Part shown: positions 38,818 through 42,956 of the stretch, in pieces
Position numbering within the stretch: position 1 is the stretch's first letter
Layout: each line of letters starts with the position of its first letter
DNA from: Geodermatophilus pulveris
GTDB lineage: Bacteria > Actinomycetota > Actinomycetes > Mycobacteriales > Geodermatophilaceae
Direction of reading: 5' to 3'
DNA length: 64,000 nucleotides
Assembly: GCF_900188375.1 (NCBI RefSeq)
Contig: NZ_FZOO01000003.1
Coordinates: forward strand, 310,001-374,000
Position numbers and translations under genes: made by a program
The notes under the pieces: model-generated
Databases searched by the model: none
Told to the model about the DNA's origin: nothing
Seen by the model: the letters and a program-made list of their open reading frames with translations, nothing else

Positions 38818-40884
38818 TCAGAGTTCCCAACGGGTCTGTGCGCGCGGGTCGGGGAGGTAGGCGCAATAGGTCCCGGTGCGGATGGTGCGGCCGAGATGCT
38901 CGCCGAGTCGGGGCTGGTGTTCAGCGATCCGGGCGATCGCCTGGCGGACCGCGCGGGTCACCGCGGCCCGGGCGCGCTCGGACGCGGAGGCGGCCCGTCG
39001 CTCGCGACCGCTCAGGCCGAACGCGCGGGCGAGCTCCTGGAGGAGGAAGTCGCGTTCGGCCTCAGATTGTGCGGCCCGCTCGGCGTCCCCGGTCTCGTGG
39101 GCTTCGGCGAGGTCGTCATCGATCTCCGCGAGGCGCCGCCGGTAGGCCTCCTTCGCCCGTGCGTCCAGCATCTCCCCGGCGTCCCCCAGCGTCGACTGCG
39201 CCAGCTCGGCCGCGCGGTGGCCGTCGTCGTCGGCGCCGTGCCCGGCCTCCGCTGCGACGAGGTCCAGCACATGGAACTCCCGCCCGGGATCCGCCAGCAG
39301 CCGGGCGAGGTGGCGCATGCCCTTGAGATCGCGCACGCGGACCGTGTCCCCGTCGAAGGTGACCGACCAGTAGTCGCCCTCGCGACGGAACACGTTGGCG
39401 CTCGCCATCGGCTGCTCGTCGTCGTGGGGGTCGAGCCGCGCGGGGGCCGGTGACGGGGCGGCCTCGATCCCGTCGAGGATCGCGCGCGCGGCCCGGCGCT
39501 CGAGCGCGGCCCGGTGTTCGCTGCCGCGGGCGGCATGCGCCGCCGCCAGGGTCAGGCGCGCGTGCGCCGCCTCGTACGGTGCGCCGACCTCGTTCCAGAG
39601 TCGCGCCGCGTCGGAGGAGGACTCCTCCGCGCCCGCCGCGTCGCCGTCGGCGAGCCGCACCCGTCCGCGAGCTAGGGCGGCAGCTGCCGCCAACGGCTTG
39701 TTCTCGAACCGGGCGGCCACGAGTGTCAGCTCGTCGGCGGCCGACCGAGCGCGGCCGATGTCGCCGGCGGCGATCTCGATCTGGACCTGTGCCTCGAGCA
39801 GCGGCGCGCGCTGCAGGTCGGTGTTCGGTGGTCGCTCCTTCGACGGCACGCGGAGAGGGCGCTCGAGCGCGTCACGGATGGAGGCCACGGCGGCGGCCGC
39901 ATCACCTCGCGCCAGGCGCACCAGTGCGAGACCCGGTTGGGGATCCCATCCGGCGCGATGACTGGCCAGCAGGGCCTCCTCGGCGCCGGCGACGTCCCCC
40001 CTGTGCAGGCGGATGCGTCCGAGCTCGTTCAGTGGCCAGCCGAGCTCGCGCCTCAGGTAGGGCCGCAGCTCCTCGCAGGCCATGAGCGCCTGGCGCTCCG
40101 CCTCGTCGCACGACCCGCGCAGTCGGAGCACCTCGGCGCGGTGAACCCGGCATCGCCCGTGCAGGCTGCCCATCGCGCTCGCCTGGCACCACCGCTCCAT
40201 CGCCTCGGTCCACTGCTCGGCGACGTCGTACTGGGCCAGGCCCTGGAGGGCGCAGACGAGTTCGCAGTAGACGACCCCCGTCGACAGCGGATCCAGGTCG
40301 CCGGAGACAGCCGCCACCCCGGCCTGGTCGAGCAGCGCCAGGCCCTGCTGGACGTCGCCGTCCAGGATGAGCAGCCGGGCCTCCGCGACCCGACCGATGG
40401 CGGCGGCCGCGGGATCGCAAGCCGAGCCCACCTCGACGGCTTGCCGGACCCAGTGCCGGGCTGCGGACAGATCGCCGGTCAGCATCCGCTCGTAGGCGCG
40501 GACGACCCCCAGCCACGCGTGCACCGGCGTCCGGCCTGGCCCGTCGAGGAGCCGATCGGCCCGTGCCAGCCAGCCCCGCACCGGTGCCATGAGGGCGGTG
40601 TCGAAGAGCAGGTGCATGGCGACGCGGACGGCCGCTCCCGCGGCCGCGACGTGGTCGTCGGCTCGCATCGACGCCGCGTGCGCCCGCTCCCACGCCTCGA
40701 TGGTCACGTCCAGGTGGCCGGCGGTGTAGGCGACCTCGCCCAACAGCGGCAAATCGGAAGCGGGCAGGAGCCCATCCGCGTCCGCGGCTACGAGGAGGTC
40801 GAATGCCTGCGGCCAGTCGCCCTGCGCCACTGCGGAACGGGCGCGCCCGACCAGGCCGAGACCTGGACCAGCGTCCTCGCTCAT
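38818..40884 (-). CDS. TPR-repeat protein with regulator-type C-terminal domain
   Basis: The protein has 688 residues. About 12 helical TPR-like repeats fill residues 10-470 (for example ARSAVAQGDWPQAFDLLVAA, IRLHRGDVAGAEEALLASHR, RGRVRLADGDAAGAEESSSD). The C-terminus from about 490 (FRREGDYWSVTFDGDTVRVR, DLKGMRHLARLLADPGREFH, LDARAKEAYRRRLAEIDDDL, TIRTGTYCAYLPDP) matches the domain found after ATPase/TPR regions of large actinobacterial LuxR/AfsR-like regulators; the kinase-like ATPase and HTH are absent here. It is divergent from an alpha/beta hydrolase across a region of three alternating half-sites. A signalling or regulatory adaptor is likely; DNA binding is not shown. Confidence 0.78.
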   Translation of the reverse strand: MSEDAGPGLGLVGRARSAVAQGDWPQAFDLLVAADADGLLPASDLPLLGEVAYTAGHLDVTIEAWERAHAASMRADDHVAAAGAAVRVAMHLLFDTALMAPVRGWLARADRLLDGPGRTPVHAWLGVVRAYERMLTGDLSAARHWVRQAVEVGSACDPAAAAIGRVAEARLLILDGDVQQGLALLDQAGVAAVSGDLDPLSTGVVYCELVCALQGLAQYDVAEQWTEAMERWCQASAMGSLHGRCRVHRAEVLRLRGSCDEAERQALMACEELRPYLRRELGWPLNELGRIRLHRGDVAGAEEALLASHRAGWDPQPGLALVRLARGDAAAAVASIRDALERPLRVPSKERPPNTDLQRAPLLEAQVQIEIAAGDIGRARSAADELTLVAARFENKPLAAAAALARGRVRLADGDAAGAEESSSDAARLWNEVGAPYEAAHARLTLAAAHAARGSEHRAALERRAARAILDGIEAAPSPAPARLDPHDDEQPMASANVFRREGDYWSVTFDGDTVRVRDLKGMRHLARLLADPGREFHVLDLVAAEAGHGADDDGHRAAELAQSTLGDAGEMLDARAKEAYRRRLAEIDDDLAEAHETGDAERAAQSEAERDFLLQELARAFGLSGRERRAASASERARAAVTRAVRQAIARIAEHQPRLGEHLGRTIRTGTYCAYLPDPRAQTRWEL

Positions 40885-40936
40885 TGCATGCCTTCCCAGC
40901 CGTTGCCGGTGGGAGCCGGGGCTCTCAGGGCCGACC

Positions 40937-40962
40937 GTAACCGTGCCGGTTACCGCCGTAAC
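40937..40962. promoter_or_regulatory. Three alternating GTAAC/GTTAC half-sites
   Basis: GTAACC-GTGCC-GGTTAC at 40937-40953 is a perfect inverted repeat, and GTTAC-CGCC-GTAAC continues it to 40962. It lies in the 142-bp divergent space between the TPR gene and the alpha/beta hydrolase. It looks like an operator for a dimeric regulator. Confidence 0.55.
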
Positions 40963-41026
40963 AGTCCTTCTTCCGCATCCCAGGTGGGGGCTCCGAGTCC
41001 CCGGCTAGGCAGACCAAGGAGGAGTC

Positions 41027-41848
41027 ATGGAGCGAGCCCAGGTCAACGGTGTCGAGCTGGAGTACCAGGTGGTCGGTTCGGGCGAGCCCGTGCTGCTCAT
41101 CAGCCCCGTCATCGCCGACGGGTTCCTGCCGCTGCTGTCCGAACCGGCGCTGGCTGATCACTACCAGCTGATCCGGTACCACAAGCGGGGCTGGGTCGGC
41201 AGCACCCACACGCCGCCGCCGGTGACCATCGCGACGCATGCGGCCGACGCCGCCGCGCTCCTCGAGCGCCTGGGCGTGCCGCGCGCCCACATCGCCGGTC
41301 ACTCCAGTGGGGCGGCGGTCGGAGCCCAGCTGGCACTCGACCGTCCCGACACCGTGCAGACGCTGGCGCTGCTGGAGCTGTCCCTGCTCTCGGTGCCGAG
41401 CGGCGAAGCCTTCTTCGAGCAGGCCGGACCCGCCTTCGCGGCGTACGGGAGCGGCGATCACGAGGGTGCGATCGCCGCGTTCATGAGTGTCGTGGGCGGC
41501 GCCGACTGGGCGACGTGCCGGGCCCTGCTCGACGAGCGTCTGCCGGGGGCAGTGGCGCAGGCCGTCAAGGACGCCGACACCTTCTTCGGTATCGAGCTTC
41601 CGGCCCTCGCCGAGTGGGCATTCGGCCCGGCAGATGCAGCCGGAATCCAGTGCCCCGTGCTGTCGGTGCTCGGCGCGGAGACCCAACCGCTGTGGGTGGA
41701 AGTCGCCGCGTTCCTCCGCTCGTCCGTCCCGCACGTCGAGGAGCGCGTGGTGGACGGCGTCGGCCATCTCCTGCACGTCCAGCGGCCCGAGCCTGTCGCC
41801 CGCGCGATGGCCGGATTCCTGGCGGGACACCCCATGGCCGGCGGTTGA
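41027..41848 (+). CDS. Alpha/beta-fold hydrolase
   Basis: The protein has 273 residues. The nucleophile elbow AGHSSGAAVGAQLAL gives the catalytic Ser, PVLSVLGAETQPLWVEVAAF lies where the acid is expected, and VVDGVGHLLHVQRPEPVARA carries the catalytic His. RYHKRGWVGSTHTPPPVTIA with the preceding strand holds the oxyanion loop. No signal peptide. The ATG at 41027 has a strong AAGGAGGAG Shine-Dalgarno. Candidates range from epoxide hydrolase and esterase to lactonase; the sequence does not decide. It is divergent from the TPR protein and may be its target. Confidence 0.92.
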   Translation: MERAQVNGVELEYQVVGSGEPVLLISPVIADGFLPLLSEPALADHYQLIRYHKRGWVGSTHTPPPVTIATHAADAAALLERLGVPRAHIAGHSSGAAVGAQLALDRPDTVQTLALLELSLLSVPSGEAFFEQAGPAFAAYGSGDHEGAIAAFMSVVGGADWATCRALLDERLPGAVAQAVKDADTFFGIELPALAEWAFGPADAAGIQCPVLSVLGAETQPLWVEVAAFLRSSVPHVEERVVDGVGHLLHVQRPEPVARAMAGFLAGHPMAGG

Positions 41849-42254
41849 GCGGCGAGGAGAGCGAGAGCATCACCAGACTGGGCCGGCCGTGGGCGGTTGG
41901 GTGGTCCCTCAGGACGGCTCGGGTGGGCTCGCGGATCACGCCGTTCCGGTCCGCACACGGTCCGCAGAGTCCGCAGGGAGTCCGGAACTCAGCCAGCATC
42001 GGTCGTCGCCGACCAACAGCGCCCAACGATGAAGCCGCAGGTCAAGCCCGGATTCCATCGATCACCGCACGCAGCCGTGCATCCCGGGTCAGTTCTGGGT
42101 CTTCGACTCCGCCGGATCTCCCCAGTGAGCTGAGGACGGCGACCACGACGGTCGGCACGCTGCGTCCGCTCGGGCGGCAGGCCAGGTCGGCATGGACTCC
42201 ACGGTCTGCTCGCCGCCGTCTGAGGACGCGGGTCGACGGGGCTGCTCTCCGATC
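41849..42254. other. Gene-free region upstream of vapB
   Basis: About 400 bp inside the island. On the minus strand, the end of a frame reading VVVAVLSSLG and DARLRAVIDGIRA near 42042-42140 looks protein-like but matches nothing I recognise. A run of GTCCGCA repeats sits at about 41950-41985. Confidence 0.45.
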
Positions 42255-42551
42255 ATGTCTTCCGCCGAGCGGCAGTCCGAGGTCTTGGACCTCGTCGTCG
42301 GCGCTGACGGCTCCGGCAGCGTCGACGCCGCGCAACTCGCTCGCTTGGGCGTCGAGCCCGGCACTCACCTGAGCGTCGTGCCCATCAGTCCGGTCCGGGC
42401 GGCGGAGCGCCGCCGCTCCGTGCGAGGAGCTCTGGCCGGTCCAGGGCCGGCGCCGAGTCCGGAGGACTTCGACGCCGCCAGCTCCGCCGCGGCGCGGGAC
42501 GCGGCCGACCGCTACCGCCACGGCGGCGTCTGGGACCCGACGACCCGGTGA
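42255..42551 (+). CDS. VapB-like antitoxin
   Basis: The protein has 98 residues. The N-terminus (RQSEVLDLVVGADGSGSVDA, LARLGVEPGTHLSVVPI) is an AbrB/SpoVT-type swapped-hairpin DNA-binding domain; the C-terminus (ARDAADRYRHGGVWDPT) would wrap the toxin. An upstream ATG at 42192 would add 21 residues; 42255 fits the family. The stop overlaps the toxin start by four bases (GTGA). Since the toxin is broken as sequenced, it may be a free antitoxin. Confidence 0.72.
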   Translation: MSSAERQSEVLDLVVGADGSGSVDAAQLARLGVEPGTHLSVVPISPVRAAERRRSVRGALAGPGPAPSPEDFDAASSAAARDAADRYRHGGVWDPTTR

Positions 42552-42956
42552 GGGTCGTCGCCGACACCCACGCGCTGGTCTGGTACCTGCTCGACGACCC
42601 GGATCGCCGGCTCTCGCCGGCTGCGATCACTGCGCTGGAGCAGGCGGAGTCGACCGACGGCGTTGCTGTGTCCGTCGCCTCGGTCGTCGACCTCTGGTAC
42701 GTGATCCGCACGCGGGGGGACGTTCACCGACGAGCAGCTGCACCAGGTCGTCGGGCTGCTCCGCGACCCGGAGACCTCGCTCGAGGCCGAGCCGATCACC
42801 CTGGCCGTCACGGCGGCGTTCCGGCAGATCCCCCGTGACGTTCTCGGTGACCCGTGGGACCGCTTCATCACCGCCACGGCCATGGCCCTCGGCCTGCCGG
42901 TGGTCACCCGCGACTGACGCATCCGCGAGTCAGGAGTGGTCGACACGATCTGGTAG
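42548..42956 (+). pseudogene. VapC PIN-domain toxin, broken by a frameshift and a nonsense codon
   Basis: The start VVADTHALVWYLLDDPDRRL (first acidic residue in ADTHAL) and SVASVVDLWYVIRTRG are followed, after a one-base slip in the GGGGGG run at 42714-42719, by TFTDEQLHQVVGLLRD, PRDVLGDPWDRFITATAMAL and GLPVVTRD. The next codon is TGA, where the family reads Arg or Ala, and beyond it RIRESGVVDTIW continues the normal PIN end to a TAG at 42954. Two independent lesions make true loss of function likely. The intact family would be an RNase neutralised by the upstream VapB. Confidence 0.8.

Follow-up and report, generated by a model that had tools for sequence, protein, structure and literature searches.

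How can a regulator-like protein that carries no recognised ATPase or helix-turn-helix (HTH) domain control its neighbour? The question is raised by a 64,000-nucleotide stretch of the Geodermatophilus pulveris genome (positions 310,001 to 374,000 of contig NZ_FZOO01000003.1; we call this whole stretch the window), in which the gene of a 688-amino-acid tetratricopeptide repeat (TPR) protein (38818-40884, minus strand) and that of a 273-amino-acid alpha/beta hydrolase (41027-41848, plus strand) diverge across 142 bp. We consider it likely that the pair is a self-contained regulatory cassette, in which an ATPase-less, MalT-like TPR regulator binds its own operator and directly controls both itself and the divergent gene. 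Both the pair and the operator are conserved, the operator is unique in its genome, and its presence goes with the regulator's own C-terminal domain. A preliminary description of the locus suggested that the TPR protein may act through a partner, which is probably wrong in view of this last association. The features on which the argument draws are as follows.

38818-40884, minus strand: TPR regulator gene, open reading frame of 688 amino acids; TPR_MalT match below the cut-off, full-length model matching MalT domain III (1hz4)
39460-40854, minus strand: TPR superhelix, about residues 11-475, likely the sensor part (AlphaFold model, MalT domain III match)
38821-39420, minus strand: C-terminal output domain, residues 489-688; Pfam and NCBIfam give no family above the cut-off, relatives elsewhere in the phylum
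39022-39162, minus strand: coiled-coil hairpin within the C-terminal domain, about residues 575-621 (full-length and domain models)
38917-39009, minus strand: long basic helix, about residues 626-656, a putative recognition helix (model, invariant arginines)
40937-40976, no strand: predicted operator of four half-sites spaced 12/9/12 (sequence, conservation across homologues)
40934-40939, minus strand: TACGGT, which shares bases with the outer half-site and may be the -10 element of the TPR gene (weak, read from the sequence)
41027-41848, plus strand: divergent alpha/beta hydrolase of 273 amino acids, its ATG 64 nt from the operator core (open reading frame and Pfam)

Conservation of the operator and the gene pair

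The preliminary description had both reading frames right, as well as three alternating half-sites between them: GTAAC at 40937-40941, GTTAC at 40949-40953 and GTAAC at 40958-40962. It overlooked a fourth, weaker half-site, CTTCC at 40970-40974, which on the minus strand is preceded by a conserved GC, so that a conserved GCG stands at 40974-40976 on that strand. Read along the regulator strand, the operator is GC-GGAAG-N7-GTTAC-N4-GTAAC-N7-GTTAC, with half-sites at -12, 0, +9 and +21. The window contains three GTAAC/GTTAC words, all in one 26-bp stretch inside the intergenic gap (shuffle mean, 11.6), and GTTACN{2,12}GTAAC matches once, compared with no match in 100 shuffles. The rest of the window is depleted of GTAAC, with zero copies outside the operator against 11.6 expected overall. 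Sought across the 4.38-Mb assembly, GTTACN4GTAAC occurs at a single place, namely this operator. The degenerate pattern of the whole family likewise has one exact match in this genome; at up to one mismatch it gives 13 matches, two of which are the readings of this operator on the two strands, and a reversed control, whose count pools all mismatch levels, gives 12. A CRP-like site was set aside, the spacing of GTGA...TCAC being different. A consensus scan found no sigma-70 consensus promoter between the two genes. By eye, TACGNT is visible in several homologous loci, and TACGGT may possibly, on this weak sequence reading, be the -10 element of the TPR gene.

The operator accompanies 24 genes with the same C-terminal domain, the window gene included. 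Initial selection of the 24 cores was visual, on upstream sequences, and the pattern by which they were registered fixes G0, C4, G9 and A12; GCG (-14 to -12) and A (-9), which lie outside that pattern yet are seen by a matrix made from nine operators, are invariant in 24/24. At +21, GTTAC is present in 9/24 and is a trait of the nearest relatives, and in related loci the half-sites drift to GGGAC and GGAAC; even paralogues within one genome (G008) differ, with GTTAC/GTAAC at L005 and GTCCC/GGGAC at L136. Near-copies or repeats of the same genes (L001, L003, L035, L038, L040, L054, L106 and L109-L113) were dropped, as were partial genes or those without usable upstream DNA, among them L011, L031, L041, L053, L117, L128 and L134. 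For each locus, we ran the nine-operator matrix along 330 bp about its upstream side. It detected the operator in 15 of the 17 held-out loci with the C-terminal domain, with 0-3 of 300 shuffles scoring as high; the two exceptions are L130 and L131. The same scan found it in 0/19 TPR relatives that carry a LuxR-type HTH (18/300 shuffles in the best case) and in 0/1 relatives with a nucleotide cyclase (L127; 148/300 shuffles). L127, whose TPR part is 49% identical, carries a guanylate/adenylate cyclase domain at its end and has no copy of the operator. Nothing was found with this matrix at four loci with uncertain starts (L123, L129, L132 and L133); once the scanned stretch was corrected, L129 scored 24.3 with a matrix made from all 24 operators. 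A 26-bp pattern allowing up to three mismatches occurs in 10/146 genomes (the window's own and relatives), in five of them at the promoters of this gene pair and in the other five elsewhere (G110, G082, G077, G083 and G140), and when read backwards in 3/146 (G123, G137 and G138). Upstream of one large regulator with the same C-terminal domain, at L137:842-869, we observed GCGTGAA-N7-TTCAC-N4-GTGAG, which has the same architecture with another half-site.

The pair is conserved as well. A complete regulator (at least 70% identity) is present in 5 of the 146 genomes (G000, G003, G008, G009 and G055), and hydrolases of at least 66% identity are found in exactly these five. The preliminary description had staked its proposal on the pair being conserved and the motif recurring in homologous promoters, and both are the case. 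Two further hydrolases, 46-47% identical, belong to genomes without a regulator match (G049 and G127). In G084 and G001 the regulator is represented by fragments alone, and no hydrolase is matched at E<=1e-50. In G001, a genome of the same genus, the last 49 regulator residues alone are matched, at 96% identity (G001:C40:5612-5758), and look like a remnant. The nearest named record that we found is a 98% identical protein of Geodermatophilus africanus DSM 45422. The hydrolase also adjoins the regulator in G490 (L124) and in two metagenome-assembled genomes (MAGs), recorded as Actinomycetes (L033) and Deltaproteobacteria (L037), and lies near it, with one gene between, in a MAG recorded as Acidimicrobiales (L036). 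Directly downstream of the regulator at L005, on the same strand, we noted a second TPR gene (G008:C52:303991-305397) that is 35% identical over the TPR part only. A search of plasmids returned three weak partial matches and no lead.

A divergent open reading frame begins 26-71 nt from the core at 23/24 operator loci, the remaining one (L032) being at a contig edge. In six representative partners, Pfam recognises Abhydrolase_1 (L034), MDMPI_N (L036), Rhodanese (L118) and Methyltransf_11 (L126) and, below the cut-off, Cupin_2 (L007) and ABM (L121). With the others sorted by eye, the partners comprise seven hydrolases of the window's type, two other hydrolases (one of them, L039, with a short reading frame), eight cupin-like proteins, three rhodanese-like proteins and one each of the rest. 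Because the divergent partners vary while the regulator and operator stay, the operator tracks the regulator rather than the enzyme.

The hydrolase of the window belongs to Abhydrolase_1 (Pfam, E 3.6e-15). At the positions that we take to be those of the catalytic triad, including the acid position in GxxD, Ser93 and His247 are invariant in 8/8 aligned hydrolases, and the canonical acid position is an invariant threonine (Thr219, 8/8). Glu117 is also invariant and may serve as the catalytic acid. In the hydrolase leader, a GC-rich inverted repeat, GGGG-CTCCGAGT-CCCC, lies at 40986-41003, with similar stretches seen by eye in several homologues. Beyond the pair, at 42192-42860, a small gene is followed by a PIN-like toxin reading frame, named from the sequence alone, that apparently changes frame near 42835.

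The TPR part and the C-terminal domain of the regulator

For the TPR protein, Pfam at E<=1 returns only TPR_MalT (E 4.7e-05; 23.3 bits against a 45-bit cut-off), DksA-like_N and ARM_TT21, and NCBIfam at the same threshold only a weak ccmI match; neither finds an ATPase/AAA, HTH or GerE domain, nor the OmpR or BTA domain of a SARP. The AlphaFold model of the TPR part is all-helical, with a predicted local distance difference test score (pLDDT) above 70 in most blocks, and in Foldseek the full-length model matches MalT domain III (1hz4) at rank 8 with E 9.6e-06 and a template modelling score of 0.74 by target length. Relatives that are 31-38% identical over the TPR part end, in the same frame, in a GerE-like HTH (19/19 with a small profile, 8/8 with Pfam), and none of these 19 LuxR-type proteins has the C-terminal domain found here, whose 200 amino acids occupy the position of the GerE HTH. 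Thus, the claim in the preliminary description that the protein has neither ATPase nor HTH stands for the ATPase and probably fails for the HTH, as the C-terminal domain sits in the GerE position and goes with the operator.

The preliminary description had also recognised that the C-terminal domain is common to large regulators. At E<=1e-10 we find the domain in 34/296 sampled genomes of the phylum, the present one included, often in open frames of at least 1,000 amino acids, and AAA_16 is present in all three of the large frames tested, making these AAA and TPR regulators. The model of the domain comprises three strands, helices and a coiled-coil hairpin (helices 575-598 and 601-621 of the full model, 87-110 and 113-133 of the domain model), followed by a long basic helix in which R149, R151, R156 and R159 (domain numbering) are invariant in eight sequences. 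We take the domain to be, probably, a winged helix of the OmpR type into which the hairpin is inserted, on structural evidence that is suggestive only. Among 50 VIA rows, only two structures span the whole domain model, both of them DNA-binding domains of the OmpR type: CadC (5ju7; Z 6.5, 94/107 residues aligned, root-mean-square deviation (rmsd) 3.2) and ArlR (9dlu; Z 6.4, 94/105 aligned, rmsd 4.6), with Z values in the range that common arrangements reach. In an alignment of profiles with OmpR domains the N-terminal half is in register and, if a low-confidence or global alignment is permitted, the domain end falls on the wing (TIRTGTYCAY near TVRNVGYKL). A GreA-like coiled-coil tip (AxxxGDxE, 39022-39162) was tried and rejected: the alignment covers 16 columns and scores 17.0, the highest of 32 TPR windows reaching 13.5, and it is too short and probably due to chance.

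Several results weigh against this fold and against direct binding by the regulator, beginning with the common Z values just given. The model of the C-terminal domain is weak (pLDDT 64.6) and comes from a shallow alignment of eight rows, and Foldseek finds for it no match at E<=0.001 (216 at E<=10). The best E in a sequence search of the PDB is 0.12. In Pfam scans run with HMMER filters on, eight C-terminal domains gave neither GerE nor Trans_reg_C at E<=10, with sub-threshold matches only, DksA-like_N included, and leaving the insertion out (seven sequences, E<=10) also revealed no HTH or Trans_reg_C. Profile comparison with OmpR domains stays below column shuffles, the spliced domain scoring 19.7 where the best of 100 shuffles reaches 24.3. 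A smaller profile had beaten 60 shuffles (21.6 versus 19.2), a result that was lost with the larger profile (21.4 against a best of 21.6 in 100 shuffles for the N-terminal half, 21.7 against 22.7 for the whole domain and 11.6 against 20.1 for the C-terminal half) and that we do not use as proof. On the side of the operator, the 24-operator matrix gives the loci L132 and L133, with the variant GCGTGAC-N7-GTCAC, scores of 8.1 and 7.7, and L130 and L131, with a like variant, 5.2; these four do not exceed the best LuxR control (8.7, n=19), so that support for the variants comes from reading and not from the score, and L123, at 4.1, is weak. Most large AAA regulators with the same domain lack the operator: among 18, with gene starts guessed from open frames, one is clear (L137, 0/100 shuffles) and another borderline (L145, 2/100). 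Finally, over 22 operators (L009 and L039 left out), half-sites of one operator are alike beyond permutation (0.764 versus 0.708, 0/5000), which speaks for the proposed operator, and the inner pair covaries most (11/5000 permutations); what counts against it is that pairs with the outer half-site covary only weakly (235 and 380 of 5000), all among related and hence not independent sequences whose relatedness was left uncontrolled.

Proposed mechanism and its alternatives

In the mechanism that we propose, the TPR superhelix, resembling domain III of MalT, would sense a ligand, the C-terminal domain, standing in place of the LuxR HTH, would bind DNA, and the coiled-coil hairpin would probably serve dimerisation. 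The target of the C-terminal domain would be the four-half-site operator between the genes, with its 12/9/12 spacing and 21-bp direct-repeat period. The regulator would most likely damp its own promoter, negative autoregulation being suggested by the overlap of the outer half-site with the possible -10 element, and it would switch the divergent hydrolase in response to a compound related to the substrate of the enzyme.

The absence of an HTH recognisable to Pfam or NCBIfam, and the general knowledge that TPR domains often bind proteins, would suit a regulator that acts through a separate DNA-binding partner. We regard this as unlikely, given that the operator goes with the C-terminal domain in the HTH position and that no second regulator gene recurs on the divergent side, the side that was read. 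Direct binding is the simpler account because the domain occupies the HTH position, goes with the operator and has a weak model that is OmpR-like at low significance. Binding by the TPR protein itself is a prediction, which leaves some room for the half-sites belonging to a global regulator, for instance as GlnR boxes (GTnAC-n6-GTnAC), with the TPR protein acting elsewhere or via a partner; according to PMC3087709, GlnR recognises half-sites of the form GTnAC, also where these stand far apart. Mainly because of the spacing, which is N4 and N7 and does not vary among the 24 loci in their registered form, we reject GlnR and give it only a slight chance. GTNACN6GTNAC has no match in the window, the genome has the core palindrome at this one place, the GGGAC and GGAAC half-sites of related loci misfit GTnAC, and the partners examined form no evident nitrogen set.

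That the inverted repeat acts as an RNA hairpin in the leader transcript, as an attenuator or stability element, is very improbable. GUUAC-N4-GUAAC could form a 5-bp stem, and it is in this inner pair that covariation is strongest; on the other hand, the pair is fully complementary in only 11/22 operators, and the outer GCGKRAS, at constant distance and equally conserved in its GCG and A, does not fit a hairpin. Least probable of all, in our judgement, is that the genes are neighbours without a functional link and the motif merely a conserved promoter element, as the overlap of a possible -10 (TACGNT, by eye) with the outer half-site in several loci might suggest, since the close hydrolases are confined to the genomes with a complete regulator and the symmetric inner half-sites covary.

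Beyond the cassette itself, we tentatively advance a broader reading, to which we give less than even credence: the C-terminal domain may be a DNA-binding module not described before, in which a coiled-coil hairpin, inserted between helices 2 and 3 of a winged helix, pairs protomers and sets the 12/9 spacing. A whole set of regulators in the phylum would then have this domain as their output part, so far unrecognised, and it would travel in portable sensor-switch cassettes with interchangeable divergent enzyme genes.

Relation to known systems and significance

GlnR is an OmpR-family response regulator. The regulator described here shares with MalT and LuxR-type TPR regulators a sensor superhelix like MalT domain III, and has relatives among them at 31-38% identity over the TPR part, but it lacks their NTPase domain and GerE and carries the 200-amino-acid output domain instead. 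The large, LAL-like AAA and TPR regulators share that C-terminal domain and differ in having the ATPase and a clear operator in only 1/18 cases. The AfsR/SARP regulators (PMC10936776) also combine TPRs with DNA binding by a domain of the OmpR type, at repeats spaced by one or two turns of the helix; the N-terminal OmpR and BTA domains of SARPs and the NOD of AfsR were not found in the window protein, and the half-sites here are both inverted and direct, at 12/9/12. Here the distance between the two direct half-sites is 21 bp, or roughly two turns of the helix, a spacing like one of those of SARP repeats, for which PMC10936776 gives 11 or 22 bp. GlnR shares the GTnAC half-sites and differs in being a global nitrogen regulator with n6 spacing and no TPR; PMC3087709 calls it an atypical response regulator and discusses its binding on the OmpR model, a precedent for GTnAC recognition. 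At the level of titles and abstract openings, we found no description of the operator or of the C-terminal domain in the literature.

If direct binding is correct, a regulator domain that is unnamed in Pfam and NCBIfam would gain a function and a predicted binding site, and an explanation could follow for those actinobacterial ATPase-TPR proteins in which this domain is present and a DNA-binding part has not been recognised. As this regulator has a single copy of its operator in the genome, its family may be a source of ready-made sensors with one target, for which the divergent enzyme would give a direct hint to the ligand.

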